Below are positions 20,049-34,730 of a DNA stretch of 64,000 nt, piece by piece (the first letter of the stretch is position 1; every line of letters starts with the position of its first letter). The stretch comes from Hyphomicrobiales bacterium (GTDB taxonomy: Bacteria; Pseudomonadota; Alphaproteobacteria; Rhizobiales; Beijerinckiaceae): contig UCBZ01000017.1 in NCBI GenBank assembly GCA_900470775.1, forward strand, positions 229,181-293,180. Direction: 5' to 3'. Below the pieces are notes generated by a model that saw only the letters and a list, made by a program, of their open reading frames with translations, was not told the DNA's origin and did no database searches. The translations under genes were made by a program, and so were the position numbers.

Positions 20049-21482
20049 TCATGCGCGGTTGTAGACGTCTTCAAGCCGAACGATGTCGTCCTCGCCGAGA
20101 TAGCTGCCGGTCTGGACCTCGATGATCTCGACATCGATCCGGCCGGGATTGGCCAGCCGATGAACTGCCCCGCGTGGAATATAGATCGATTCGTTCTCGG
20201 AGAGGTCGCGCACGCTGTCATCCACGGTGATGCGGGCTGTGCCCTTGACGACGACCCAGTGCTCGGATCGGTGCAGGTGCTTCTGGAGCGAGAGCTGGCC
20301 GCCGGGATAGACCACGATGCGCTTGGCCTGGAAGCGATCCTGCTGCTCCAGCGTGCGGTACCAGCCCCAGGGCCGATAGACGCGCGCATGGTGCGTCGCC
20401 TCGATGCGGCCTGCCTTCTTGAGCTGGTCGACCAGGCCCTTGATCTCGCCTGAGCGCGCCTTGTCGGCGACCAGGACGGCGTCCCTCGTCGCGACAACGA
20501 CGGTGTCGGTCATGCCGAGCACGGCGACGAGCTGGCCTTCGCTCGAAACATAGCTGCCGGTGGTGTCGATGAAGGTGACGTCGCCGGTTGCTGCATTGAA
20601 CGAGCCGTCCTGCGGCGAGACGGCCCAGAGCGCATCCCAGCCGCCGATATCGGACCAGCCGAAATCGCCGCCGACAACGACGGCATGCGTGGTCCGCTCC
20701 ATCACGGCATAGTCGATCGAGATTTTCTTGGCCGTCAGGAAGCTGGCTTCGTCGAGGACCGGCACGCCGAGATCGGTTTTCGCGCTGGAGATCGCGGCGC
20801 GGACGCCGGCGACGCTGTCGGCGTCATGGCCGGCATATTCGTCGATGATCGTGGCGGGCTCGAACAGGAAATTGCCCGAGTTCCAGAGATAGCCGGAGGC
20901 GACGTAGCGCAATGCGGTCTCGTGGTCGGGCTTCTCGACGAAGCGGGCGACCTCGCGAGCCTCGCCGGCGACGGTGGCGCCCGCTTCGATATAGCCGTAG
21001 CCGGTGGCCGGGCTGCTGGGGATGATGCCGAAGGTCACGATCTTGCCGGCGCGCGCCGCCTCGATGCCCGATGCCACCGCCGCGCGAAACGCCGGGACGT
21101 CGAGCACGACATGATCGGCGGCCAGCACGAGGACGAGCGCGTCGGGGCTGTGCTCGGCAATATAAAGGCTCGAGGCCAGGATCGCCGGGCCGGAATCGCG
21201 CGCCACCGGTTCGAGCAGGATGTCGGCCTCCAGCCCGATCTCCGCGACCTGACGCTCCACCATGAAGCGGTGGATCTTGTTGGTGATGACCAGCGGCCTG
21301 CCGAACAATGAGGGGTCGTTGACGCGCGCCAGCGTCTCCTGGAAGGTCGAGAGTTCCCCGATCAGCGGAGCGAACTGCTTCGGAAACGCCTCGCGCGAAG
21401 CGGGCCACAGGCGCGTGCCCGAGCCGCCGCACATGATGACCGGGCGGATGATGCCGCCGGCTTTCACATCAGTCGTTGTCAC
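20049..21482 (-). CDS. manC: Mannose-1-phosphate guanylyltransferase / mannose-6-phosphate isomerase
   Basis: A 477-residue bifunctional type II enzyme. The N-terminal nucleotidyltransferase has 'MCGGSGTRLWPASRE' and the 'FVEKPD' motif that contacts GDP-mannose. The C-terminal ~120 residues are the cupin isomerase domain, with 'RPWGWYRTLE', 'LHRSEHWVVVKG' and 'SIYIPRGAVHRLANPG' carrying the metal-binding His and Glu residues. It makes GDP-mannose from mannose-6-phosphate and GTP, and may interconvert fructose- and mannose-6-phosphate. The ORF starts with GTG at 21482, with GGAG about 10 bp upstream. It diverges from the AGE isomerase gene, which would also feed mannose metabolism. Confidence 0.92.
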   Translation of the reverse strand: MTTTDVKAGGIIRPVIMCGGSGTRLWPASREAFPKQFAPLIGELSTFQETLARVNDPSLFGRPLVITNKIHRFMVERQVAEIGLEADILLEPVARDSGPAILASSLYIAEHSPDALVLVLAADHVVLDVPAFRAAVASGIEAARAGKIVTFGIIPSSPATGYGYIEAGATVAGEAREVARFVEKPDHETALRYVASGYLWNSGNFLFEPATIIDEYAGHDADSVAGVRAAISSAKTDLGVPVLDEASFLTAKKISIDYAVMERTTHAVVVGGDFGWSDIGGWDALWAVSPQDGSFNAATGDVTFIDTTGSYVSSEGQLVAVLGMTDTVVVATRDAVLVADKARSGEIKGLVDQLKKAGRIEATHHARVYRPWGWYRTLEQQDRFQAKRIVVYPGGQLSLQKHLHRSEHWVVVKGTARITVDDSVRDLSENESIYIPRGAVHRLANPGRIDVEIIEVQTGSYLGEDDIVRLEDVYNRA

Positions 21483-21622
21483 GCTTCACTCCAGGCCGCT
21501 AAGCCGCAAGGTCAGATTTCTATGAGAATAGCGACCGCGCCACTTCGTCATGCCGATGATGTTCATAATGCCGCACCCGTCACATAGCATTTTACGTGCA
21601 AGTGGGTATATTTCTAGCGAAT

Positions 21623-21634
21623 GCCGTTAACGGC
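21623..21634. promoter_or_regulatory. 12-bp palindrome in the manC/AGE divergent region
   Basis: GCCGTTAACGGC is a perfect palindrome centred between the manC start (21482) and the proposed AGE-isomerase start (21677). It lies in DNA whose third-position G/C content is low, consistent with regulatory rather than coding sequence. It is a candidate shared operator. Confidence 0.35.
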
Positions 21635-21676
21635 CGAAGCAAGCCAAAAGTTATCCATACGGAGACAATAGAGCGG

Positions 21677-22819
21677 GTGCCCAAGCCGATTTCGAGGCTC
21701 TCACAATGGGTCTGCGACAAGGCCCTCCCTTTCTGGCAGACGCGCGGGCGAGACGCCGTCTTCGGCGGAGTCCATGAGCGGCTGCATTGGGACGGATCGC
21801 CCGATTTGGCGTCACCAAAGCGCGTTCGAGTTCAAGCCCGCCAAATCTACTGCTACGCGCATGCCACGGATCTCGGCTGGTTCGACGGCATCGGTTTTGC
21901 GGGAGCGACGCTGGACTGGCTGTTGGACAAGGCTGGCAGCGCCGGGCGCCGGCCCGGCTTCGCCCATTTGCTCCACCCCGACGGCGACATCGCCGACCCC
22001 CTCCATGACACCTACGACCACGCCTTCATCCTGCTCGCGCTGGCCTGGTATGCAAAGGCCAGCGGCGATGCTCAGGCTCGCGGCCTGATCGGCGCCACGC
22101 TGGCCTTCCTCGACGAGCGGATGCTGTGCCCAGACGGCTCCTATCGCGAAGGCCTGCCGCCCAGTCTTCCACGTCGCCAGAACCCTCACATGCATTTGTT
22201 CGAAGCCATGCTCGCCTTGCACGAGACGATCGCCTACCCCGGCGCGCTCGAACGTGCGGGCCGACTGCGGGCGATGCTGACCGAGCGCTTTCTTCAACCG
22301 GCGCCGGTACTGCGAGAATTCTTCGACGACACGTGGCAGCCGGCCGCCAATGGCATGGGCCGCATAGTCGAACCCGGCCATCAGGCCGAATGGTGCTGGC
22401 TTCTGCGCCGCTACGAAAGGGCCGCCGGTCTTCTTCCGGATGATCTGCCCTCGGCGCTGATCGACGCGGCCGAAACCACCGCAGACCCGGCCACCGGCTT
22501 TCTCATCGATGAGGCATTCGTGGACGGAACGCCGTCAAGGACCAGCCGGAGGCTATGGCCACAGACCGAATGGGCAAAGGCTTGGCTGTCCGAATTCCGT
22601 ATCGGTCGCAAGGGAGCACAGGCAAAGGCGAAGCACGCGCTCAATCAGCTATCGGCTTTCTATCTGGGCCAGCCTCTGCCGGGCGGGTGGATCGACCAGA
22701 TGGATGAAAACGGCCGGCCGATGGTCGATACGATTCCGGCGAGTACGCTCTATCACATCTTCGGCGCCGCCGTGGAAGCTGACGCCGCACTCCAGCATGA
22801 GGCCTCGCGCGAAGGTTAG
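21677..22819 (+). CDS. AGE-family epimerase/isomerase (mannose or mannose-6-phosphate isomerase type)
   Basis: A ~380-residue (alpha/alpha)6-barrel protein of the N-acylglucosamine 2-epimerase family. Conserved pieces include 'RVRVQARQIYCYAHA', 'DTYDHAFILLALAWYA', 'QNPHMHLFEAMLAL', 'EPGHQAEWCWLL' and 'LWPQTEWAKAWL', which carry the two catalytic histidines and the Arg/Glu network. Relatives interconvert mannose and fructose or their 6-phosphates. The frame stays open to GTG at 21596, but that stretch has low third-position G/C and contains a palindrome. I therefore start at GTG 21677, preceded by GGAGA 11 bp upstream. It probably supplies mannose for ManC. Confidence 0.85.
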   Translation: MPKPISRLSQWVCDKALPFWQTRGRDAVFGGVHERLHWDGSPDLASPKRVRVQARQIYCYAHATDLGWFDGIGFAGATLDWLLDKAGSAGRRPGFAHLLHPDGDIADPLHDTYDHAFILLALAWYAKASGDAQARGLIGATLAFLDERMLCPDGSYREGLPPSLPRRQNPHMHLFEAMLALHETIAYPGALERAGRLRAMLTERFLQPAPVLREFFDDTWQPAANGMGRIVEPGHQAEWCWLLRRYERAAGLLPDDLPSALIDAAETTADPATGFLIDEAFVDGTPSRTSRRLWPQTEWAKAWLSEFRIGRKGAQAKAKHALNQLSAFYLGQPLPGGWIDQMDENGRPMVDTIPASTLYHIFGAAVEADAALQHEASREG

Positions 22820-23391: not shown

Positions 23392-24486
23392 CTACGGCAA
23401 GTTCTCGCGCAGCACGATCTCGGTGCGCGGCCGCTCGACGCCCTGCGAGGCCGGGCGGCCGGCGCGCAGATTGGCGAAGATCGAGACGCAATCCATCATC
23501 GAGGCCTGCGGGTTCTGGGTGATGACAGCGTCCATCGCCCCCTCGATCAGCAGGCTGCGCGTATCAGGCGTCAGGCCATGGCCGACGAAGACGACCTCGT
23601 GCTGCCGCCCCGATTCCTTCAATGCCCGCGCGATGCCCTCCGGCCCGCCGCCGATATTGTAGATGCCGGCGAGGTCGGGATGCTGTGCCAGGAGCGTCTT
23701 GGTCTGGCGGTAGTTGCGCGCCTCCTCATCATGGCCCTCGCGCAGGCCGACGACCTGGATCGCCGGGAACAGATCCTCGAACAAATGCAGGAAGCCCATC
23801 TCGCGCTCTTCATGGGCGCGGTAGCTCAGGCTGCCGGCGATCATCGCAACCTTGGCGGGCCTGGGCCCGATGAAGCGCGCCAGCAGATAGCCGGCGGTGC
23901 GCCCCGCCGAGCGGTTGTCGAGCCCGACATAGGCGACGCGCTTCGTGTTCGCGATATCGGAGATCAGGGTCACCGCCGGCACGCCGCGCTCAGCCAGCCA
24001 GTCGACCGCCTCCCGAACCGTCGGATGCTCCAGCGCCATGAAGGCGATGCCGTCGACATCGCGCCCGACCTTCTTGAGATGCTGGGCGAGAAGCTCCGGC
24101 TTGAAGCTCTCGATATAGTCGACCCGCGCCCGCATGTTGAACGAGGCGAGTTGATCCTGAGATCCGGCGATCTGGCGCCCGACCATGCCGAGGAAGCGGT
24201 TCGAACCGGCAGGCAGCAGGAAGGCAAGACGCAGCGGCCTGAGCGCGCCGGCAGGCAGGGCGTCGTCGATCGTGTAACCGATCTCACTGGCGGCCTTCAG
24301 CACGCGCTGCACCGTCACCGCGCGGACCCCCGTCCGCTGATTCAGCACCCGGTCGACGGTGGCAGTCGAGACACCGGCGCGTGCGGCGACGTCGTCGATC
24401 CGCGCCGATGCACGGCGGCGCGGCGCCCCCTCGGCGAAAGTCGCGTCCAATGCAGCCGCTGAAGGCGGACGATTCTGGTTGGCCAT
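23392..24486 (-). CDS. LacI-family transcriptional regulator
   Basis: A 364-residue regulator. The helix-turn-helix lies at residues ~28-50 ('RIDDVAARAGVSTATVDRVL'), followed by the hinge helix 'VQRVLKAASEIGY'. The rest is a periplasmic-binding-protein-like effector domain with 'RLAFLLPAGSNRFLGMVGRQ', 'IAFMALEHP' and 'YNIGGGPEGIARAL'. The 'NIGGG' loop and 'VVFVGHGLTPDTR' are typical of the RbsB-like LacI subgroup that senses sugars or polyols. It diverges from the TRAP/RLP operon with 117 bp between the start codons, so it is the likely repressor, with the transported sugar acid or an intermediate as inducer. Confidence 0.9.
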   Translation of the reverse strand: MANQNRPPSAAALDATFAEGAPRRRASARIDDVAARAGVSTATVDRVLNQRTGVRAVTVQRVLKAASEIGYTIDDALPAGALRPLRLAFLLPAGSNRFLGMVGRQIAGSQDQLASFNMRARVDYIESFKPELLAQHLKKVGRDVDGIAFMALEHPTVREAVDWLAERGVPAVTLISDIANTKRVAYVGLDNRSAGRTAGYLLARFIGPRPAKVAMIAGSLSYRAHEEREMGFLHLFEDLFPAIQVVGLREGHDEEARNYRQTKTLLAQHPDLAGIYNIGGGPEGIARALKESGRQHEVVFVGHGLTPDTRSLLIEGAMDAVITQNPQASMMDCVSIFANLRAGRPASQGVERPRTEIVLRENLP

Positions 24487-24493
24487 TCAAATC

Positions 24494-24549
24494 ACATCAA
24501 AAAACATCAAGAATTGAGTTTGACGGACATCACGGCACCTTTCTATCGT
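24494..24549 (+). promoter_or_regulatory. Promoter and direct repeats before the TRAP/RLP operon
   Basis: TTGACG (24520-24525) followed after 18 bp by TATCGT (24544-24549) forms a plausible alphaproteobacterial sigma-70 promoter reading into the TRAP operon. Just upstream are two direct repeats ACATCAA at 24494-24500 and 24504-24510, next to the LacI start codon. They may be regulator half-sites. No clean LacI-type palindrome is visible. Confidence 0.4.
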
Positions 24550-24603
24550 CTGCGCAAGAAGACGGCAATCAATCAGATCGCAAGCCGATCCAGGGAGGAT
24601 CAG

Positions 24604-25620
24604 ATGACTGAATTCACGCGCCGCAAGGTTCTGCACACGCTCGCCGCCTCGACGGCGATCCCGCTGATCGGCATGCCGCATATCGCCCGCGCGGCCGAGT
24701 TCGAGCTGAAATACGGCAACAACCTGCCGCTCAGCCACCCGCTCAATGTCCGCTCGCAGGAGGCGGCCGAGCGCATCGCCAAGGAGACCAACGGCCGGGT
24801 CGAGATCAAGATCTTCCCGAACAACCAGCTTGGCGGCGACACCGACATGCTGAGCCAGGTCCGCAATGGCGGCATCACCTTCTTCACCCCCTCGGCGCTG
24901 GTCATCGCGACGCTGGTGCCGGTCGCCGCGATCAACGCGGTCGGCTTCGCCTTCGCCGATTACGACCAGGTCTGGAAGGCCATGGACGGCAAGCTCGGCG
25001 CCCATGTCCGCGAGGCGATCTCCAAGGTCAACCTCTTCGCCTTCGAGAAGATGTGGGACAACGGCTTCCGCCAGATGACCACCTCGGGCAAGCCGATCGA
25101 AACCGCCAAGGACATGGCCGGCCTCAAGATCCGCGTGCCGGTCTCGCCGCTCTCGATCTCGATGTTCAAGGCGCTCGATGCGGCTCCCGCTAGCCTGCAG
25201 TTCTCGGAAGTCTATTCCGCCCTGCAGACCAAGGTCGTCGATGCGCAGGAGAACCCGCTGCCGATCATCCAGGTCGCCAAGCTCTTCGAGGTCCAGAAGA
25301 ACTGCGCGATCTCGAACCATATCTGGGACGGTTTCTGGTTCATCGCCAATGGCCGCGCCTGGCGCGGCCTGCCGGCCGACATCCAGAAGATCGTCGGCGA
25401 CGCCATCAACGAGGCCGGCGTCAAGCAGCGCGGCGACATCAAGAGCCTGAACGAGACGGTCCAGGCCGATCTCCAGTCCAAGGGGCTCGCCTTCAACAAG
25501 ACCAACCCCGAAACGTTCCGGGCCAAGCTTCGCGATGCCGGCTTCTACAAGGAGTGGCAGGAGCGCTTCGGCGCCGAAGCCTGGGGCCTGCTCGAAGGCG
25601 CCGTCGGCAAGCTCGCCTGA
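24604..25620 (+). CDS. TRAP transporter solute-binding protein (DctP), Tat-exported
   Basis: A 338-residue DctP-type binding protein. It has a twin-arginine signal (FTRRKVLHTLA) with cleavage after 'IARAA', then 'KYGNNLPLSHPLNV', the 'GRVEIKIFPNNQLGGDTDML' strand, and 'GLKIRVP', which contains the conserved Arg that binds the ligand carboxylate. GGGAGG 8 bp before the ATG fixes the start. It is the first gene of a co-oriented operon (dctP, dctQM, VOC, RLP, kinase) with gaps of at most 55 bp. The conserved carboxylate-binding arginine means the imported solute is probably a sugar acid rather than a neutral sugar. Confidence 0.93.
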   Translation: MTEFTRRKVLHTLAASTAIPLIGMPHIARAAEFELKYGNNLPLSHPLNVRSQEAAERIAKETNGRVEIKIFPNNQLGGDTDMLSQVRNGGITFFTPSALVIATLVPVAAINAVGFAFADYDQVWKAMDGKLGAHVREAISKVNLFAFEKMWDNGFRQMTTSGKPIETAKDMAGLKIRVPVSPLSISMFKALDAAPASLQFSEVYSALQTKVVDAQENPLPIIQVAKLFEVQKNCAISNHIWDGFWFIANGRAWRGLPADIQKIVGDAINEAGVKQRGDIKSLNETVQADLQSKGLAFNKTNPETFRAKLRDAGFYKEWQERFGAEAWGLLEGAVGKLA

Positions 25621-25675
25621 GCGCTCATCGAGCCTGCACGGCGCAAAAGACCCATCACAAGAAAGCGCCGCTGCC

Positions 25676-27562
25676 ATGGACGCCCATACCGCGACACTGC
25701 ACGCCCCCCCGCCGATCCCGACCACCGGGATCGGCCGGATGGCGAACCGCCTTGACCACGTCGCCGGCACTGGCGTGGAGGCCATCGCGGCGGCGCTCGT
25801 CCTGGTCGAGATCTGCATCCTCGCGGCGGGCGTGACCGCCCGCTACGTCCTCCACGCCCCGCTGGTCTGGTCGGACGAACTGGCTTCGATCCTGTTCCTC
25901 TGGCTCTCGATGCTCGGTGCCGTCGTCGCGCTCCGGCGCGGTGAGCATATGCGCATGACCGGCCTGGTCTCGCGGGTTTCGCCTGCGACGCGAGCCCTGC
26001 TGGAAGCGCTCGCGATCACCGCCGCGATCGCCTTCCTGCTGCTGATTCTGCCGCATGCGCTCGAATATGCCGAGGAAGAAACCTTCATCGTCACGCCTGC
26101 ACTCGAGATCACCAATGCCTGGCGCGCGGCGGCGATCCCCGTCGGCATGGGCCTGATGCTGCTGGCGGCGAGCTTCCGGCTGCTGCGCTTCGGTTCGCTC
26201 AAGCCTGTCCTGCTCGCGATCGGCATCACCGCGGCACTCGTGCTGCTGTTCTGGCTCGCCGGCCCTGCGCTCAAGCCGCTCGGCAAGCTCAACCTCGTCG
26301 TCTTCTTCGTCGGCGTCGTCGCGCTCAATGTCTTCTCCGGCGTGCCGATCGCCTTCTCCTTTGCGCTCGCCACCTTCGGCTACCTCGCCTGCACCACGAC
26401 GACGCCGATGATCGTCATGGTCGGCCGCCTCGACGAGGGCATGAGCCATCTGATCCTGCTCGCCGTGCCGCTCTTCATCTTCCTCGGCGCGCTGATCGAG
26501 ATGACCGGCATGGCCAAGGCGATGATCCAGTTCCTCGCCTCGCTGCTCGGCCATGTCCGCGGTGGCCTGTCCTATGTGCTGGTCGGCGCGATGTATCTGG
26601 TCTCGGGCATTTCCGGCTCGAAGATCGCCGACATGGCGGCGATCGCCCCCGTCCTCTTCCCCGAGATGAAGAAGCGCGGCGCCAAGCCCGGCGATCTCGT
26701 CGCCCTGCTCGCCGCGACCGGCGCGCAGACCGAGACGATCCCGCCCTCGATCGTGCTGATCACCATCGGCTCGGTCACCGGCGTCTCGATCGCGGCACTG
26801 TTCACCGGCGGCATGGTGCCCGCGCTCGTGCTCGGCATCGCGCTCTGCTTCGTCGTCTGGTGGCGCAATCGCGGAGAGGATCTCGGCCATGTCGTCCGGC
26901 ATTCCTGGCGTCAGATCGGCAAGCTCAGCCTGATTGCGCTGCCGGCCATCGCCCTGCCCTTCGTCATCCGCGCCGCCGTCGTCGAGGGCGTCGCGACTGC
27001 GACCGAGGTCTCGACCATCGGCATCGCCTATTCGGTGCTGGCCGGGCTCTTGCTCTATCGCCAGTTCGACTGGCGCCGCCTGCCGCGCATGCTGACCGAC
27101 ACCGCCTCGCTCACCGGCGCGATCATCTTCATCGTCGGCTGCGCCACGGCCATGGCCTGGGGGCTGACGCAATCGGGCTTCTCGCAGGATCTGGCGCGGG
27201 CCATGGCGGCCGTGCCCGGCGGAACCTGGGGCTTCCTGGCGATCTCGATCGTCGCCTTCATCATCCTCGGCTCGGTGCTCGAGGGCATCCCGGCGATCGT
27301 GCTGTTCGGACCGCTGCTGTTCCCGATCGCCAAGCAGATCGGCGTGCACGAGGTCCACTACGCCATGGTCGTCGTCTTCGCGATGGGCATCGGCCTGTTC
27401 GCCCCACCCTTCGGCGTTGGCTATTACGGCGCCTGCGCGATCAGCAAGGTCAATCCCGACGAGGGCCTGAAATACATCGGCGGCTACATGCTCGCCTTGT
27501 TCCTCGGCCTCATCGTCGTCGCCGCCGTGCCGTGGTTCTCGACCGGCTTCCTGAAATTCTGA
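25676..27562 (+). CDS. TRAP transporter fused small and large permease (DctQM)
   Basis: A 628-residue membrane protein. Residues ~25-195 are the DctQ domain with about four membrane segments ('ARYVLHAPLVWSDELASILF' is the signature). Residues ~200-628 are the DctM domain of the ion-transporter superfamily, with about 12 segments and motifs such as 'VPLFIFLGALIEMTGMAKAM', 'GAQTETIPPSI' and 'LFAPPFGVGYY'. Separate Q and M genes are more common; the fused arrangement is known in a subset of TRAP systems. It uses a Na+ or H+ gradient to import the ligand delivered by DctP. Start at ATG 25676, 55 bp after dctP. Confidence 0.93.
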   Translation: MDAHTATLHAPPPIPTTGIGRMANRLDHVAGTGVEAIAAALVLVEICILAAGVTARYVLHAPLVWSDELASILFLWLSMLGAVVALRRGEHMRMTGLVSRVSPATRALLEALAITAAIAFLLLILPHALEYAEEETFIVTPALEITNAWRAAAIPVGMGLMLLAASFRLLRFGSLKPVLLAIGITAALVLLFWLAGPALKPLGKLNLVVFFVGVVALNVFSGVPIAFSFALATFGYLACTTTTPMIVMVGRLDEGMSHLILLAVPLFIFLGALIEMTGMAKAMIQFLASLLGHVRGGLSYVLVGAMYLVSGISGSKIADMAAIAPVLFPEMKKRGAKPGDLVALLAATGAQTETIPPSIVLITIGSVTGVSIAALFTGGMVPALVLGIALCFVVWWRNRGEDLGHVVRHSWRQIGKLSLIALPAIALPFVIRAAVVEGVATATEVSTIGIAYSVLAGLLLYRQFDWRRLPRMLTDTASLTGAIIFIVGCATAMAWGLTQSGFSQDLARAMAAVPGGTWGFLAISIVAFIILGSVLEGIPAIVLFGPLLFPIAKQIGVHEVHYAMVVVFAMGIGLFAPPFGVGYYGACAISKVNPDEGLKYIGGYMLALFLGLIVVAAVPWFSTGFLKF

Positions 27563-27596
27563 TGTCGCACCAACGCGCAAGCACAAGGGTATCGCC

Positions 27597-28136
27597 ATGA
27601 GCCGCTTCTTCGGCCAGATCCGCCAGGCGGGCTATGTCGTCCCCGATATCGAGGCGGCGATGGACTATTGGAGCCGCGTGCTCGGCGTCGGGCCGTTCTT
27701 CTACAATCCGAAGGTCCCGATCAGGAACTACCGCTACAAGGGCGAGGCCTATGAGCCGCACAACTCGGTCGCGCTGGCCAATTCCGGCCCGCTCCAGATC
27801 GAGCTGATCCAGTGCCGCAACGCCGTGCCGTCGATGTACAAGGACTTCACCGATGCCGGCCATTCCGGCCTGCAGCACGTCGCCTACTGGACCTCGGACT
27901 ATGACGCCGATCTCGAACGCCTGACGGCGCAGGGCTTCAAGGTCGTGATGTCGGGAGAGGTCGGCGAGCGTGGCCGCTTCTGCTATTTCGACACCTATTA
28001 TCACCCCGGCACCGTGATCGAGCTCTCCGAGGTCGCCGGCCCCAAGGGCGAGATGTTCCGCCTGATCCGCGAGGCCGCCGAGACCTGGGACGGCAGTGAC
28101 CCGGTGCGGCCGTTCCCGGATCTGAGCAAGCTGTGA
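27597..28136 (+). CDS. VOC-superfamily protein within the RLP operon
   Basis: A 179-residue vicinal-oxygen-chelate protein with two beta-alpha-beta-beta-beta modules: 'AGYVVPDIEAAMDYWSRVLG' at the N-terminus and 'GLQHVAYWTSDYDADLERL' in the second half. Candidate metal ligands are Glu in 'QIELIQ', His in 'LQHVAYW' and Glu in 'TVIELSEV'. The first-module histidine usual in methylmalonyl-CoA epimerase is replaced by Gln (RQAGYVV). VOC enzymes catalyse isomerisation, epimerisation, lyase or dioxygenase steps through metal-bound enediolates. Lying 34 bp after dctQM and 7 bp before the RLP gene, it probably acts on an intermediate of the same pathway; the reaction is unknown. Confidence 0.85.
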   Translation: MSRFFGQIRQAGYVVPDIEAAMDYWSRVLGVGPFFYNPKVPIRNYRYKGEAYEPHNSVALANSGPLQIELIQCRNAVPSMYKDFTDAGHSGLQHVAYWTSDYDADLERLTAQGFKVVMSGEVGERGRFCYFDTYYHPGTVIELSEVAGPKGEMFRLIREAAETWDGSDPVRPFPDLSKL

Positions 28137-28143
28137 CGGCGAC

Positions 28144-29433
28144 ATGACCGCAGACCGCTTCCAGGCCACCTATCTGATCGAGACCCCCCTCGACCCGGCG
28201 AAGGTCGCCGAGGTCATGGCCGGCGAACAGTCGAGCGGGACCTTCACCCGCGTCGCCGGCGAGACCGACGAGTTGCGCAGCCGTACCCGCGCCGTCGTGA
28301 CAAGCGTCGAGGACCTGGAAACCGTTGCCGCGCCCAGCCTGCCCAATGCCTGGCTGGCGAAGAAGGGCGTCACCGGCCCCTGGCGTCGCGCCCGTGTCGC
28401 GATCTCGTTCCCCGTGGACAATGTCGGCGCCAATCTGGCGACGCTGGCCTCTATCGTCGCGGGCAATCTCTACGATCTCGGCGAGGTCACCGGCCTGCGG
28501 CTCGACACCATCACCCTGCCGGCCGCATTCCGCAGTCGCTTTGCGATGCCGCGCCAGGGTATCGCCGGGACGCGGACCCTGACCGGCGTGATGGAAGGCC
28601 CGATGGTCGGCTCGATCATCAAACCCAATGTCGGCCTGAGCCCCGAAGAGACCGCCGCGCTCGTCGGCAAGCTCTGCGCCGCCGGACTCGACTTCATCAA
28701 GGACGACGAGATCTCCGCCGATCCCGTCCACGCCCCCTTGGCGCAGCGCGTGCCGGCGGTGATGGATGTCGTGCGCCGGCATCAGGACCGCACCGGCAAG
28801 GCGGTGATGATCGCCTTCAACATCACCGACGAGACCGACGCCATGAAACGCCACGCCGATCTGGTCGCGCGCGAGGGCGGCACCTGCGTCATGGCGAGCC
28901 TGAACTGGTGCGGCTTCTCCGCCATCGAGACACTGCGCCGCGCGACCGATCTCGCTTTGCACGGTCACCGCAATGGCTTCGGCGCGTTATCGCGCCATCC
29001 CCTGCTCGGCATCTCCTTCCAAGCCTATCAGACGCTTTGGCGGCTCGCGGGCGTCGACCACATGCATGTCCATGGCCTGCAGGGGAAATTCGCGCAGGAG
29101 GACGATGAGGTCGTGTCCTCGGCCAAGGATTGCGTCACGCCGCTGAGCCAAGGCCCCGGCGGCAAAGGCATCGACGACCGCGTCCTGCCGGCGTTCTCGT
29201 CCGGCCAATGGGCCGGTACGGCACAGCCGACCTTTGATGCCATCGGCCATGCCGACCTGCTCTTCATGGCTGGCGGCGGCATCCTCGCCCATCCCGGCGG
29301 CCCGGCAGCCGGCGTCGCCAGCATCCGCCATGCCTGGGAGGCCGTCGCGGCCGGCCAGTCCTTGACGGACGCCGCCGCCATGCATCCCGAGCTGCGCCAG
29401 GCGCTGGACTTCTTCGGCAAGGTCACCGGATGA
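28144..29433 (+). CDS. RuBisCO-like protein (form IV, acid-sugar type)
   Basis: A 429-residue RuBisCO large-subunit homologue. Equivalents of RuBisCO active-site residues can be placed by eye: Glu28 (E60), Asn108 (N123), Lys160 (K175), Lys186, Asp188 and Glu189 in IKDDE (carbamylated K201, D203, E204), His275-Arg276 (H294-R295), His308 (H327), loop-6 Lys315 (K334), Ser353 (S379) and Gly378-379 (G403-404). The second loop lysine K177 is replaced by Asn162 (KPNVG). RLPs of the OiaX/OiaT group decarboxylate, or cleave with transcarboxylation, 3-oxo-isoapionate-4-phosphate in D-apionate catabolism. The downstream DUF1537 kinase, translationally coupled by ATGA, fits that role. It is unlikely to be a CO2-fixing RuBisCO because K177 is lost and no small subunit is present. 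Confidence 0.92.
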   Translation: MTADRFQATYLIETPLDPAKVAEVMAGEQSSGTFTRVAGETDELRSRTRAVVTSVEDLETVAAPSLPNAWLAKKGVTGPWRRARVAISFPVDNVGANLATLASIVAGNLYDLGEVTGLRLDTITLPAAFRSRFAMPRQGIAGTRTLTGVMEGPMVGSIIKPNVGLSPEETAALVGKLCAAGLDFIKDDEISADPVHAPLAQRVPAVMDVVRRHQDRTGKAVMIAFNITDETDAMKRHADLVAREGGTCVMASLNWCGFSAIETLRRATDLALHGHRNGFGALSRHPLLGISFQAYQTLWRLAGVDHMHVHGLQGKFAQEDDEVVSSAKDCVTPLSQGPGGKGIDDRVLPAFSSGQWAGTAQPTFDAIGHADLLFMAGGGILAHPGGPAAGVASIRHAWEAVAAGQSLTDAAAMHPELRQALDFFGKVTG

Positions 29434-30731
29434 GCCCGGCGATGGCAGCGGCGCGCCCGTCCTATGGCTGGTATGGCGACGATTTTACCGGCGCCACTGA
29501 TACGCTGGCCGCGCTCGCCGAATACGGCGTCCGGGCGCTGCTCTTCCTGCGCATCCCAACAAGCAAGCAGCTCGCAGCCGCCGGCCCGCTCGACGCAATT
29601 GGCATCGCAGGCGCGACGCGGTCGATGGCGCCTGACGCCATGACCGCCGAGCTGGACGCGGCAGGCCGCTTCTTCGCCGAGGCAGGCGTCGACATACTCC
29701 ACTACAAATGCTGCTCGACCTTCGACAGCGCCCCGCATGTCGGCAGCATCGGCGCGGCCGTGCGGGCGCTACGCCCGCACTTCGCCAACCCCTTCCTGCC
29801 GATCGTCGGCGGCCAACCCAATCTCGGGCGCTACTGCCTGTTCGGCAATCTCTTCGCGGCCGCCGGCAGTGGCGGCCCGGTCCATCGCATCGACCGCCAC
29901 CCGACCATGAGCGTCCACCCGGTCACGCCGATGGCCGAAGCCGATCTGCGCCGGCATCTGGCGGCTCAGGGACTGGAGCGGATCGAGCTCATCGACTACC
30001 GCAGCTATGAGGGCACGGACGCTGAGAATGGACTCGTGGCCGGCCTCGCCGCAGACCGGGACGCCGTCCTTCTGGATGTCTCGCGAACCGAAGACCTCGC
30101 CGTCATCGGCCGGCTGCTGCGGCGGAAGATGAACAATGGCCCGATGCTCGCCATCGGCCCGAGCAGCGTCGCCCAGGCGCTGGCCACCTCCTGGCCGAGC
30201 GCCCGGCAGACTGCAGCCGTGTCGGACGCCCCAGCGCCGCGTCCCGGCCCGGTCCTCGCCCTCGTCGGAAGTCTCTCGCCGGTGACGCGCGCGCAGGTCG
30301 AGGCCTCCGCGGCCTATGAGCGCATCGGCATCGACACCGCAAGCCTACTGTCGGAGCCGGCCTATAGCCTCGCGCTGGAGCAGGAGGCGCATGCCCGCCT
30401 CTCGGCCGGCCAGCATGTCATGCTTGTCACCGACAGGCCGTCACAGGCACCGGGCAACATGGAGAACGTCGCGCTCGCAACGGGCCGCCTGCTCAGCAGC
30501 ATCTTGACCACGGCCGCGATCCGGCGCCTCGTCGTCGCCGGCGGCGATACGTCGAGCCTTGCGGTCAAGTCGCTCGATATCTGGGGTTTGTCCTATCGCG
30601 CCGCGCTGGTGCCGGGAGCCCCGCTCTGCCGGACCCATAGCGACGACCCGCGCCTCGACGGACTCGATATCGTCCTCAAGGGCGGACAGATGGGACCGGT
30701 CGGCTTTTTCGACGCGGTTGCCGCTTCATAG
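29430..30731 (+). CDS. Four-carbon acid-sugar kinase family protein (DUF1537; OiaK-like)
   Basis: A 433-residue DUF1537 kinase. The N-terminal sugar-acid-binding domain opens with 'YGDDFTGATD', and the segment 'HYKCCSTFDSAP' is also characteristic. The C-terminal nucleotide-binding domain includes 'VVAGGDTSSLAVKSL' and 'LVPGAPLCRTHSDDP'. Family members phosphorylate erythronate, threonate, 3-oxo-tetronate or 3-oxo-isoapionate. Its ATG overlaps the RLP stop by 4 bp, so the two are made together. Kinase followed by RLP is the order of the last two reactions of the OiaK-OiaT or OiaK-OiaX routes. Which acid sugar it phosphorylates is not determined by sequence alone. Confidence 0.9.
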   Translation: MSPAMAAARPSYGWYGDDFTGATDTLAALAEYGVRALLFLRIPTSKQLAAAGPLDAIGIAGATRSMAPDAMTAELDAAGRFFAEAGVDILHYKCCSTFDSAPHVGSIGAAVRALRPHFANPFLPIVGGQPNLGRYCLFGNLFAAAGSGGPVHRIDRHPTMSVHPVTPMAEADLRRHLAAQGLERIELIDYRSYEGTDAENGLVAGLAADRDAVLLDVSRTEDLAVIGRLLRRKMNNGPMLAIGPSSVAQALATSWPSARQTAAVSDAPAPRPGPVLALVGSLSPVTRAQVEASAAYERIGIDTASLLSEPAYSLALEQEAHARLSAGQHVMLVTDRPSQAPGNMENVALATGRLLSSILTTAAIRRLVVAGGDTSSLAVKSLDIWGLSYRAALVPGAPLCRTHSDDPRLDGLDIVLKGGQMGPVGFFDAVAAS

Positions 30732-30763
30732 GCTGGCGAGGCACTTCATAGGCTCGCAAGACA
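30724..30763. repeat. Tandem 20-bp duplication across convergent stop codons
   Basis: Two copies of a 20-bp unit beginning CTTCATAGGCT lie head to tail at 30724-30743 and 30744-30763, with 17 of 20 bases identical. Each copy contains TCATAG, a TAG stop on the plus strand and a TGA stop on the minus strand. The first copy ends the kinase gene and the second ends the HAD phosphatase gene. Confidence 0.65.
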
Positions 30764-31282
30764 CTCCTGCACGAAGCCATCGAGATCGCCGCCCTTGAAC
30801 AGGAATCCAGCGACGCCCGCCGCCTGCGCCGCTTCGAGGTCGGTCGCGCGATCACCGATCAGGAAGGAGCGCTGCTTGTCGGTCGGAAAGGCCTGCATCG
30901 CCTTGAGCAGCATGCCCGGTCGCGGCTTGCGATCCTCATGGTCAATGCAATAGGCGGGAACCGTCGCCTGCGGATGATGCGGCGCATAGTAGAAGGCGTC
31001 GATCCGCGCCCCGTTCTCCGCCATGATCCTGTTCATCTCGACATGGAGAACGCGGACATCCTCCTCCGTATAGAAGCCGCGCCCGACGCCTGACTGATTG
31101 GTCACCACGACGACGCGGTAACCGAGCTCGTTCAGCCGTCGCACCGCCGCGAAGGCGCCCTGCACCCAGACGATCTGGTCGATGCGAAAGGCATAATCGA
31201 CATCCTCGTTGAGGACGCCGTCGCGGTCGAAGAACACCATCGGCGCAAGCGCGCCGGCCTCCGGAATGGCAACCACCGTCAT
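30746..31282 (-). CDS. HAD-family phosphatase related to heptose bisphosphate phosphatase GmhB
   Basis: A 178-residue HAD hydrolase of the HisB-N/GmhB type. The nucleophile motif is FFDRDGVLN with Asp19 and Asp21, followed by 'VVVTNQSGVGRGF', 'RKPRPGMLLKA' and 'FLIGDRATDLEAA'. GmhB normally binds a structural zinc with Cys-x-His and Cys-x-Cys. Here the first Cys is Ala (APHHP) and the pair before RKP reads HED, so at least two zinc ligands are missing. It follows rfbA by 5 bp on the minus strand and closes the dTDP-rhamnose operon. A role in heptose or another sugar-phosphate step of surface-glycan synthesis is plausible but unproven. Confidence 0.8.
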   Translation of the reverse strand: MTVVAIPEAGALAPMVFFDRDGVLNEDVDYAFRIDQIVWVQGAFAAVRRLNELGYRVVVVTNQSGVGRGFYTEEDVRVLHVEMNRIMAENGARIDAFYYAPHHPQATVPAYCIDHEDRKPRPGMLLKAMQAFPTDKQRSFLIGDRATDLEAAQAAGVAGFLFKGGDLDGFVQECLASL

Positions 31283-31287
31283 CGCCT

Positions 31288-32175
31288 CTAGCCCTTCGGC
31301 AGCAGGGCGATCTCGGCCGCCATCCGCAGCAGATACTGGCCATAATCGCTCTTGGCGAGCCTGGAGCCCAGTGCTTCGAGCTGGCCGACATCGATCCAGC
31401 CACGGCGGCAGGCGATTTCCTCGGGGCAGGCGATCCGCAAATCCTGTCGGCTCTCCAGCGTCCTGACGAACTCCCCGGCCTGGAGCAGGCTGTCGGGCGT
31501 GCCTGTATCGAGCCAGGCGAAACCCCGGCCCATGCATTCGACCGAAAGCTGGCCGCGTTCGAGATAGACCCGGTTGACGTCGGTGATCTCGAGTTCGCCG
31601 CGCGGCGAGGGCTTCAGCGAGGCTGCGATCTCGACGACCTGCGCGTCGTAGAAATAGAGCCCGGTCACAGCCCAGTTCGAGCGCGGAACCTTGGGCTTCT
31701 CCTCGATTGAGATCGCCTTGCCCTGTGCATCGAAGGAGACCACGCCATAACGCTCGGCATCGCGCACCTGATAGGCGAAGACGGTGGCGCCGCTTTCGCG
31801 TTTCCGCGCCTGGCGCATCATCTGGGTCAGGCTGTGGCCGTAATAGAGGTTGTCGCCGAGGATCAGCGCCGAGGGCTCGCCTGAAACGAAATCCGCGCCG
31901 ATCAGATAGGCCTGCGCCAGTCCGCCCGGATGCGGCTGCTCCGCATAGCTCAGGCTCAGCCCCCACTCCGAACCGTCGCCCAGCAGCCGCTGGAAATGCG
32001 GCAGGTCTGATGGCGTCGAGATGATCAGGATCTCGCGGATATCCGCCAGCATCAGCGTGGTCAGCGGATAATAGATCATCGGCTTGTCGTAGACGGGCAG
32101 AAGCTGCTTCGAGATCGCCAGCGTCATCGGGTGCAGGCGGGTGCCGGAACCTCCCGCCAGAATGATGCCCTTCAT
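31288..32175 (-). CDS. rfbA: Glucose-1-phosphate thymidylyltransferase
   Basis: A 295-residue nucleotidyltransferase matching RfbA/RmlA in length and motifs: '[15 protein letters not shown]' (nucleotide binding), '[14 protein letters not shown]', '[11 protein letters not shown]' and '[22 protein letters not shown]', which includes the catalytic acidic residues and the EKP motif. It couples glucose-1-phosphate and dTTP to dTDP-glucose, the first step of dTDP-L-rhamnose synthesis. It overlaps the start of rfbA with the end of rfbD by 4 bp (ATGA) and is followed by the HAD phosphatase gene. Confidence 0.96.
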
Positions 32176-33080
32176 GATCCCTGCCCTGCCCGTTCTTCGG
32201 TGAGAAGCCGCGCCACGCAAGCCCGCAGCGATCCCTGCCACTCCGGCAGCCGCACGCCATGGGCGAGCGCGAGCTTGCGGCAGTCCAGCCTGGAATTCGC
32301 GGGCCGGCGTGCAGGTGTCGGATAATCGGCCGTCGCGATACGTTTGACCCGAACCGGCTTGCCGCCATGCCGTTCCCGTTCGGCGAAAATCGCTTCGGCG
32401 ACATCGGCCCAGACGGCCTCGCCCGCTGCGCTCATATGGAACACGCCACGGAGCGAAGCGTCGTCCGTCCGGCTGGTCAGGTTGCGCGCAACAGCGAAGA
32501 TCGCATCGGCGATGTCGAGCGCACCGGTCGGACACCCCGCCTGGTCCGCGACGACGCCGATCTCGTCCCGCGTTTCGGCAAGGTGCAGCATCGTCTTGAC
32601 GAAGTTCTTGCCGAAGGGACTGTAGATCCAGGCCGTGCGCAGGATCGCGTGATTGTTGGTGGCCGCCGCGACCGCCTGCTCGCCGGCGAGTTTGCTCGCG
32701 CCATAGGCCGAGATTGGGCCGGTCGCGTCATCCTCGCGATAGGGCCGGTCGAGCACGCCGTCGAAAACATAGTCGGTCGAGAGCTGGATGACGGGAATGC
32801 CGAGCGCGGCCGCGGCCCGCGCCGCTTCGCCGGCCGCTTCGCCATTGACGCGCATGGCGAGGTCGGACTCGCTTTCGGCCTGATCCACGGCCGTGTAGGC
32901 CGCCGTGTTGACGATGACGTCGGGCCTGGCCGCGCGCAAGGCCGGCGCGACCGTCTTCGGGACGGCGAGGTCGAGGTCCGGGCGGCGCAGCGCGATAACC
33001 TCGACGCCCACGGGTACGCGCTCCAGCATGGCGCAGACGACTTGGCCGGTCCAACCGGTGACGGCGATGCGAAGTGTCAT
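32172..33080 (-). CDS. rfbD: dTDP-4-dehydrorhamnose reductase
   Basis: A 302-residue SDR-type reductase. The cofactor motif is 'VTGWTGQV' and '[12 protein letters not shown]' is the RmlD signature. '[10 protein letters not shown]' followed by '[12 protein letters not shown]' gives the Ser/Thr, Tyr-x3-Lys catalytic set. It reduces dTDP-4-dehydro-L-rhamnose to dTDP-L-rhamnose with NAD(P)H. Its start overlaps the rfbC stop by one base (TGATG), and its end overlaps the rfbA start, so all three are translationally coupled. Confidence 0.95.
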
Positions 33081-33637
33081 CAGTCGAAATACCGCGGCAG
33101 ATCGGCGAGGCGCGGATGCTTGCGGTCCTTGTCGGACAGGGTCAGCCGCTCGGCCGGCAGCCGCCAGTCGATGCCGAGTGCGGGATCGTCGAAGGCGAGA
33201 CCGTGATCATGGGCAGGCGCATAGGGCGCGCTGACCTTGTAGAGCACCTCGGTATCGGGCTCGAGCGTCACGAAGCCATGTGCGAAACCCGCCGGCACCA
33301 GCAGTTGCAGCCAGTTCTCGGCGGAAAGTTCGACGGCGACGGCCTTGCCGAAATCCGGCGAGGACGCGCGGATATCGACGGCGATGTCGAGGATGCACCC
33401 GCGCGGCACGCGGATCAGCTTGTCCTGCGCGAAGGGCGGCGACTGGAAATGCAGGCCGCGCAATGTGCCGACGACCGGCGAGAGCGAGTGGTTGTCCTGC
33501 ACGAAGTCATGGTCGATGCCGGCCTCGGCGAAGGCCTTGCGGCTATAGGTCTCCGAGAAGAAGCCGCGATGGTCGCCGAACTTCTTCAACTGGATGATCT
33601 TCACATCGCGCAGCGCGGTCGCTTCGACATGCAGCAT
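33080..33637 (-). CDS. rfbC: dTDP-4-dehydrorhamnose 3,5-epimerase
   Basis: A 185-residue cupin epimerase. Signature segments are 'HRGFFSETYSRKAFAEAG', 'VGTLRGLHFQSPPFAQDKLIRV', which contains the catalytic His, and 'VPAGFAHGFVTLEPDTEVLYKVSA', which includes the Tyr and the substrate-binding core. It epimerises dTDP-4-keto-6-deoxyglucose at C3 and C5. The ATG at 33637 has AAGGAAGG about 6 bp upstream, so the longer open frame reaching into rfbB is not used. The C-terminal 'LSDKDRKHPRLAD' tail is typical. Confidence 0.95.
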   Translation of the reverse strand: MLHVEATALRDVKIIQLKKFGDHRGFFSETYSRKAFAEAGIDHDFVQDNHSLSPVVGTLRGLHFQSPPFAQDKLIRVPRGCILDIAVDIRASSPDFGKAVAVELSAENWLQLLVPAGFAHGFVTLEPDTEVLYKVSAPYAPAHDHGLAFDDPALGIDWRLPAERLTLSDKDRKHPRLADLPRYFD

Positions 33638-33668
33638 GCTTTGCCTTCCTTTGGCGGCCCGGGGCCGT

Positions 33669-34730
33669 TCAGCCCGCGCCGAGCCGTTCTCCGCGATAGA
33701 CGCCGGACCGGATATCGCCCCACCAGCCGGCATTGGCCAGATACCATTCCACGGTACGGCGCAAGCCGCTCTCGAAACTCTGCTTCGGCGCCCAGCCGAG
33801 TTCACGCCCGATCTTGCCGGCGTCGATGGCATAGCGGGCGTCATGACCCGGCCGGTCCGTGACATAGGTGATCAGCCGCTCATGCGGACCGGCCGGATCG
33901 GGGCGCAATTCGTCCAGAAGCGCGCAGATCGTCCTGACCACATCGAGATTGGCCATCTCGTTGTCCCCGCCGATTGCATAGGTCTCGCCGGGTCTGCCCT
34001 TTTCGGCGACGAGCAGCAGTGCATCGGCATGGTCGTCGACATAAAGCCAGTCGCGCACATTGGCGCCGTTGCCATAGACCGGCAGCGGCTTACCCTCGAG
34101 CCCGTTGATGATCATCAGCGGGATCAGCTTCTCGGGGAAATGATACGGCCCGTAATTGTTCGAGCAGTTGGTGACCAGCGTCGGCAGGCCGTATGTGTGC
34201 TGCCAAGCCCGCACCAGATGGTCGGACGCGGCCTTCGAGGCCGAATAGGGCGAGGTTGGCTGGTAGGCCGTGTCCTCGCGGAAGAAGCCCTCCGCCCCCA
34301 GCGACCCGAAGACCTCGTCGGTCGAGATGTGGTGGAAGCGGAAGCGCTCGCGGCGTTCGCCATCGAGCCCGCGCCAATGGCGCAGCGCCTCCTGCAACAG
34401 GACGAAGCTGCCGACGATATTGGTGTCGATGAAGGCGGCAGGCCCATCGATCGAGCGATCGACATGGCTCTCGGCTGCCAGATGCATGACGATGTCAGGG
34501 TCGAACGAGGCAAACACCCCGCGCATCGCCTCGCCATCTCCGATATCGGCCTTTTCGAAGCGGAAGCGGGCATCGCCGGAGACGGACGCCAGCGAGGCCA
34601 TGTTGCCGGCATAGGTCAGCTTGTCGACGACGCAGACGCTGTGGCTGGTCTCCGCGATCAGCTTGCGCACCACGGCCGAGCCGATGAAGCCCGCGCCCCC
34701 GGTGACCAGAAATCTCAAAGATGCCGGCAA
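33669..34730 (-). CDS. rfbB: dTDP-glucose 4,6-dehydratase
   Basis: A ~350-residue extended SDR. It opens with '[16 protein letters not shown]' (NAD binding) and has '[18 protein letters not shown]', '[10 protein letters not shown]' with the Asp-Glu pair that drives dehydration, and '[13 protein letters not shown]' with Tyr-x3-Lys. It converts dTDP-glucose to dTDP-4-keto-6-deoxyglucose and is the first gene of the rfbBCDA operon. The start is a TTG: either 34730 or the TTG at 34718 (giving MRFLVTGG), and the second matches homologues better. No strong Shine-Dalgarno decides it. Confidence 0.95.

Follow-up and report, generated by a model that had tools for sequence, protein, structure and literature searches.

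Which compound is degraded when a RuBisCO-like protein (RLP), a DUF1537 kinase, a vicinal oxygen chelate (VOC) protein and a tripartite ATP-independent periplasmic (TRAP) transporter are encoded side by side? The question is raised by the genes at positions 23392 to 30731 of the window, the whole stretch of 64,000 nucleotides analysed here (contig UCBZ01000017.1, positions 229,181 to 293,180), which belongs to the genome of a Bosea species (assembly GCA_900470775.1, here G000; 5.55 Mb, 96 contigs). In the present study these genes are tentatively read, with confidence somewhat short of even, as an operon sufficient by itself for the breakdown of a branched acid sugar, in which the VOC protein, the kinase and an RLP with OiaT-like activity would act in that order. 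The gene set, its conservation, the exchangeability of its parts and the placement of the RLP in a clade of its own are evident from the sequences themselves.

The open reading frames and a Pfam profile search agree with the layout given in the initial annotation of the window. A gene of a LacI-family repressor with a Peripla_BP_4 sugar-binding domain (23392..24486, minus strand) diverges, across 117 bp, from five genes on the plus strand. These encode the TRAP substrate-binding protein DctP (24604..25620), a fused DctQM TRAP permease (25676..27562), the VOC protein (27597..28136), the RLP (28144..29433) and the kinase (29430..30731). The gaps along the operon are short (55, 34 and 7 bp), and the RLP stop and the kinase start share a 4-bp ATGA overlap. 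All six proteins exceed the Pfam gathering cut-offs, with the domains LacI and Peripla_BP_4; DctP; DctQ and DctM; Glyoxalase_4; RuBisCO_large and RuBisCO_large_N; and SBD_N and NBD_C, respectively. LacI would repress the operon as long as neither the substrate nor an intermediate is bound to it. A search for its operator in the LacI-dctP gap found no palindrome shared across 23 such gaps.

The arrangement is conserved far beyond chance. Of 554 confirmed relatives the best 80, which come from alpha-, beta- and gammaproteobacteria and are referred to as the named loci, were compared. In them, the kinase gene follows the RLP gene in all 80 and a VOC gene lies ahead of the RLP gene in 76. The LacI gene is found upstream on the opposite strand in 73 named loci, and in 67 of the 70 where at least 6 kb of upstream sequence is present. 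The four loci devoid of VOC are L118 and L131 (in both, the contig starts at the RLP), L139 (with an apparent VOC remnant) and L142. Among plasmid records with an RLP at least 58% identical, a VOC match stands immediately before the RLP in 18 of 18. The transporter varies: 48 named loci have the TRAP type of the window, 16 another TRAP type, and ten loci with LacI and VOC carry neither. Two of these ten (L076 and L094) have an amino-acid-type ABC transporter, whose binding protein occurs in six genera. In addition, four loci (L032, L034, L065 and L163) contain LacI, DctP, VOC, RLP and kinase genes with no DctQM match between DctP and VOC.

Besides the cassette and transporter genes, the sole family found in at least four genera at the clustering threshold used was a TctC-like receptor (nine genes, five genera), which was taken to be unrelated. 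As no other enzyme family recurred in the 80 loci at this threshold, three enzymes should suffice for the pathway. No match to PdxA was found in the 80 named loci, and no match to ApnO, the oxidoisomerase of D-apionate catabolism, within up to 10 kb of them. As judged by its gene content, the cassette is self-contained across many genera. Among the papers listed by a literature search, no title or abstract opening describes it.

The family of the RLP was determined by profile scores and by phylogenetic analysis. The best NCBIfam model of the window RLP is OiaX (NF042437), with 440.7 bits against a cut-off of 700, and the scores on the two MtnW models (TIGR03332 and NF007095) are 121 and 150 bits, against cut-offs of 513.6 and 409. 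Assignment to either OiaX or MtnW is thereby ruled out. The initial annotation had named clustering with MtnW as one outcome that would speak against its proposal; this clustering did not occur, the nearest model being OiaX with MtnW far below. With 782 and 774 bits, the RLPs of loci L060 and L061 do pass the threshold of the OiaX model, whereas eight other scored RLPs, the window RLP and an apionate-type RLP encoded on contig C81 of the same genome do not. The window RLP is 51% identical to the C81 protein and 44% identical to the OiaX-scoring RLP of L061.

The RLP set comprised 129 rows (126 different), the proteins of L078 and L128 (a stop in the matched stretch) and L066 (a fragment) being left out, and a midpoint-rooted tree was built from 61 of them. 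The cassette RLPs split from 16 comparison RLPs with a support of 100/99; the comparison proteins were the two OiaX-scoring RLPs, seven RLPs encoded beside ApnO, which form a group outside OiaX, and others. Judging by this tree, the window RLP belongs to a clade of its own, apart from the OiaX-scoring and the ApnO-associated RLPs. The clade is represented in the set by 112 further rows of 60-93% identity, a few of which are copies of one locus. A further lineage of RLPs (46-47% identity) is present in two Bosea genomes, at loci L057 and L058, where TRAP genes and a divergent kinase accompany it.

Residues K160, K186, D188, E189, H275 and K315, which by alignment with 8dht correspond to RuBisCO K175, K201, D203, E204, H294 and K334, are conserved in all 129 rows. 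Where 8dht has the second lysine of its KPK motif, K177 of carboxylating RuBisCO, all 113 cassette rows, the window RLP included, have N162, and 15 of the 16 others have serine. The SGQ stretch, which presumably lines a phosphate site of RuBisCO, is followed by WAGT in 113 of 113 cassette rows. In the 16 other RLPs the first place after it holds threonine (12), serine (2) or tryptophan (2), and the fourth holds glutamine without exception. These differences indicate that the pocket of the cassette RLPs differs from that of the other RLPs.

The OiaX score also bears on a simpler chemistry, in which the RLP would be a plain decarboxylase like OiaX and the resulting ketose phosphate would be handled by housekeeping enzymes. 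It is considered unlikely: besides the score below the cut-off, the cassette clade is separate from the two OiaX-scoring RLPs. In one of these (L061) a DerI-scoring isomerase is encoded nearby (254.7 bits, cut-off 240), and a homologue 61% identical to it is found in the other (L060). No DerI-type match was present in the 80 cassettes or in 19 other RLP or kinase loci, LerI not having been searched for. The distribution of DerI is in line with an OiaT-like RLP.

The VOC protein is regarded as the most telling gene product of the operon and is proposed to be a metal-dependent isomerase. Its residues Q10, E69, H94 and E142 are invariant in 105 of 105 rows, some of which may represent one locus twice. 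They align with the four metal-site positions of the methylmalonyl-CoA epimerase 1jc4 and of 3gm5, the residues of which we assume to be metal ligands, and thus correspond to an isomerase/epimerase site. A metal site of this type lends itself to a 1,2-proton shift, by which a branched aldehydic or 2-oxo acid could become, without a dehydrogenase, the 2-hydroxy-3-oxo acid required by an OiaK-like kinase. More distant VOC relatives (54-56%) occur in L178 and L180 with no kinase or RLP nearby; the neighbours in L178, named by eye, include genes of a short-chain dehydrogenase/reductase (SDR), a carboxymuconolactone decarboxylase-like protein and a P450.

In the pathway proposed, the TRAP system (elsewhere the ABC system) would import a small branched hydroxy-oxo or aldehydic acid, and the VOC protein would isomerise it by a 1,2-proton shift to a 2-hydroxy-2-branched 3-oxo acid, 3-oxo-isoapionate or a close homologue. 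The kinase would then phosphorylate the C4 hydroxyl of the 3-oxo acid. The RLP, as a putative transcarboxylase/hydrolase, would split the phosphate as OiaT does, to 3-phosphoglycerate and glycolate, or lactate in the case of a larger branch. An OiaT-like split would require no tetrulose-phosphate isomerase.

A census of the VOC gene across the order, in which 39 of 397 genomes yielded a total of 41 places, indicates what the RLP may replace. The 32 best places were read. Fifteen, the window included, have the window-type RLP and kinase, and another 15 have a DUF1537 kinase, PdxA, an aldolase of the DhnA/FbaB type and a DeoR regulator. This second set is complete in 13 loci; L209 shows PdxA only and L222 is cut by the contig end. 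One of the remaining loci has the apionate-type RLP and kinase pair and one (L208) has neither; none has both the RLP and the PdxA set. Five of the nine weakest places were also read, and RLP, kinase and PdxA were found in none of them. In L211 and L212, and on a plasmid of Azospirillum thermophilum, the PdxA set adjoins an otherwise ordinary LacI-TRAP-VOC block. It appears from this exchange that the RLP replaces PdxA plus the aldolase, that is, carboxyl loss plus cleavage of a carbon-carbon bond, which suggests that one RLP is exchangeable for the two enzymes. That the exchanged version requires an aldolase suggests that the branch of the substrate carries a hydroxyl group itself. In L193, LacI, DctP, DctQM and VOC genes are followed by an apionate-type RLP (71% identical to that of C81) and kinase (58%), and in L030 a LacI-DctP-VOC block adjoins an SDR, an apionate-type RLP and a kinase. 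As the apionate-type pair can thus stand in the place of the cassette pair or beside the same block, both pairs should act on like substrates. The PdxA-type loci were also compared with the published Brucella erythronate cluster, which looks like another cluster: otnK, otnI, otnC, denD, ltnD and mfs are named, and neither TRAP nor PdxA is mentioned, in the accessible part of that source (PMC10580937).

The aldolase would also be accounted for if the substrate were a 3-C-carboxy aldose, of which aceric acid of rhamnogalacturonan-II is the natural candidate considered. The VOC protein would then convert the aldose to a ketose, the kinase would act at C1, and the RLP would release 3-phosphoglycerate and lactate; in the exchanged version, the kinase, the aldolase and PdxA would do the same job, with dihydroxyacetone phosphate, acetaldehyde and CO2 as products. 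This would explain the VOC protein, the missing dehydrogenase and the aldolase required when the RLP is absent. The different pocket is also counted in its favour, the position next to SGQ being tryptophan in all 113 cassette RLPs and threonine or serine in 14 of the 16 others. A RhaD-like aldolase gene lies near four of the 15 PdxA-type loci (L166, L216, L217 and L219), two of which (L216 and L219) also have rhaA- and rhaB-like genes, named by eye. However, nothing measured points to this ligand, and the four RhaD-bearing loci are of one genus. A sugar of plant cell walls is also hard to reconcile with marine and halophilic hosts. Aceric acid is considered very unlikely. A separate observation concerns a Croceibacterium plasmid (L194, 36-15101), where the genes of a related RLP and of a kinase overlap a gene of glycoside hydrolase family GH127 in a glycan-degradation cluster with GH42, fucosidase and esterase genes. 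The GH127 protein was examined as a clue to an acerase; its nearest structure is 5opj and it scores lowest of six to 5mqo, which we take to be the acerase, and it was not used as support.

The kinship of the RLP and kinase to OiaX and OiaK, suggested by the initial annotation, holds at the level of nearest models. On contig C81, the second RLP of the genome is accompanied by a kinase resembling OiaK (606.8 bits), by a GntR regulator and, in divergent orientation, by a gene like ApnO. The ApnO label is based on this position and on a similar gene (L055) clustered with ApnL (838.6 bits, cut-off 750). This is the single ApnO match of the genome, so ApnO lies on C81 and not in the operon; ApnL had no match in the genome, although the same model exceeds its cut-off in the relatives G013 and G059. 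Of the genes for which a genome search had been recommended, ApnO was found, with its own RLP and OiaK-like kinase, and ApnL was not; the observation that no oxidoisomerase or lactonase lies beside the operon stood. On these comparisons, the RLP and kinase of the window are a distinct paralogue of the apionate-type set.

The apionate genes nevertheless suggest another role for the operon, that of the OiaK/OiaT pair of Bosea acting in trans, with a distant ApnO producing 3-oxo-isoapionate and the TRAP and VOC proteins only scavenging a related intermediate. Of 37 Bosea genomes, 27 have the window-type RLP (the loci of all except G020 were read). ApnO was found in 21 of the 29 that carry this RLP or the apionate-type one, and in none of the eight that carry neither (Fisher p 0.0003, uncorrected for kinship). 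In fifteen genomes ApnO occurs while the apionate-type RLP is absent; each of these fifteen has the window-type RLP, so the cassette may also serve apionate. In L173 and L175, ApnO and GntR genes are direct neighbours, the RLP and kinase genes that separate them on C81 being missing, and ten ApnO loci from genomes in which ApnO had shown no RLP beside it contained neither kinase nor RLP. On the other hand, ApnO is missing from eight of the 27 genomes with the window-type RLP and from the surroundings of all 80 named loci, and the window's own genome has a separate set of ApnO, RLP and kinase. Two of the 15 genomes (G010 and G016) also hold the RLP lineage of L057 and L058 with a kinase that could serve ApnO. 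ApnL is without a match in the genome of the window and in 26 of the 27 genomes. Reliance on distant genes, one of the options offered by the initial annotation, is thus not the usual state of the cassette, and we regard the trans arrangement as improbable. The cassette may accept 3-oxo-isoapionate in some species, with another acid as its main substrate.

The kinase was also scored against the models of its family. Its scores on OiaK (NF042436; 328.7 bits, cut-off 700) and OtnK (NF043035; 169.4 bits, cut-off 350) are below both cut-offs, which rules out either assignment, OiaK being the nearest model. As the family includes 3-oxo-tetronate kinase, and the VOC protein could interconvert 2-oxo and 3-oxo acids, the substrate might be a linear 2- or 3-oxo tetronate, with the VOC protein in the role of OtnI and the RLP in that of OtnC. 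However, the score on OtnK is much lower than that on OiaK, a third DUF1537 protein of the genome, on contig C89, is a clear OtnK (589 bits), and with a linear C4 acid the aldolase of the exchanged version would have no part to play. A linear tetronate is the most doubtful of the substrates considered.

For the branched acid favoured here, a further lead comes from the transporter. The nearest solved relative of DctP is 4oan (chain A; 435.8 bits, 63% identical), presumably a TRAP binding protein of R. palustris HaA2 with density modelled as 2-acetolactate, a ligand with the branched 2-hydroxy-3-oxo acid skeleton proposed here. The same genome holds a closer match to 4oan on contig C51 (76% vs 63%), beside an SDR gene; the ligand of 4oan is consequently not simply transferable to the DctP of the window, and is a lead only. 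According to the part of a review available to us, 2-acetolactate is among the new TRAP ligands, the structure entry being unnamed there (PMC5812351). The fold of DctP predicted from the single sequence was unusable (pLDDT 35). At the C51 locus (L148, 4056-8122), the SDR gene accompanies a second set of TRAP genes, which resembles 4oan more closely; TRAP genes with a C51-like SDR recur in L155-L157 and L160, and L161 and L162 combine them with RLP and kinase genes of the apionate type.

Several points weigh against the pathway proposed, the substrate and the VOC and RLP reactions of which are suggested by sequence comparison. In the midpoint-rooted tree, the cassette clade, the ApnO-associated RLPs and the L057/L058 lineage branch in no firm order, so that kinship does not in itself imply OiaT-like chemistry; the ApnO-associated RLPs are themselves called OiaT by gene context. 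The OiaK scores rise from the window kinase through three PdxA-set kinases (451 to 478 bits, OiaK being their best model) to the apionate-type kinase. The VOC protein may instead be an epimerase, or have another substrate. An SDR stands in the place expected for VOC in L161 and L162, and five of the 80 named loci are accompanied by one that shares more than 50% identity with the L030 or L050 SDR, so oxidation by the SDR rather than isomerisation may yield the 3-oxo acid. As twelve of the 15 PdxA-type VOC loci belong to a single genus (g347), the 15 cannot be counted as independent events. Enzymes of the PdxA family normally oxidise the phosphate of a 3-hydroxy acid, and PdxA would fit a 3-oxo kinase product only if it acted here as a redox-neutral decarboxylase.

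On the 3' side of the operon, on the minus strand (30746-34730), lie dTDP-rhamnose synthesis-like genes (RmlA, D, C and B) and a HAD phosphatase gene, all named by eye. Upstream (20049-22819) are, on the minus strand, a gene like that of mannose-1-phosphate guanylyltransferase and, on the plus strand, a gene of the N-acylglucosamine 2-epimerase family.

Among known systems, the D-apionate pathway with OiaK and OiaX or OiaT, reportedly that of Carter et al. 2018, has the DUF1537 kinase and the RLP in common with the operon, and the OiaK and OiaX models are the best matches of the window proteins. The operon differs from it in that neither ApnO nor DerI is encoded alongside and ApnL is missing from the genome, both proteins are below the equivalog cut-offs, and VOC, TRAP and LacI genes are present instead. 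Pathways of the PdxA type with a DUF1537 kinase serve D-threonate and D-erythronate; a kinase with PdxA can adjoin the same LacI-TRAP-VOC genes, replacing the kinase and RLP. The window uses an RLP instead, and the exchanged version also has a DhnA-type aldolase. The metal-site positions of the VOC protein are shared with methylmalonyl-CoA epimerase and glyoxalase I, but the epimerase is remote (22.6 bits to 1jc4) and CoA substrates are not expected. The solved RuBisCO-like protein 3nwr resembles the window RLP (651 bits) and shares the cassette residues, including the SGQWAGT stretch; its molecule name is only 'A rubisco-like protein', and no function is stated there. The cassette thus defines a widespread RLP clade with a fixed partner set close to this structure, and the function of the RLP group and of the linked VOC protein becomes directly testable with few substrates. 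D-apionate catabolism runs via OiaK with OiaX or OiaT, as stated in the accessible part of the source (PMC6302742), and the operon is a new variant of such kinase-plus-RLP acid-sugar pathways.

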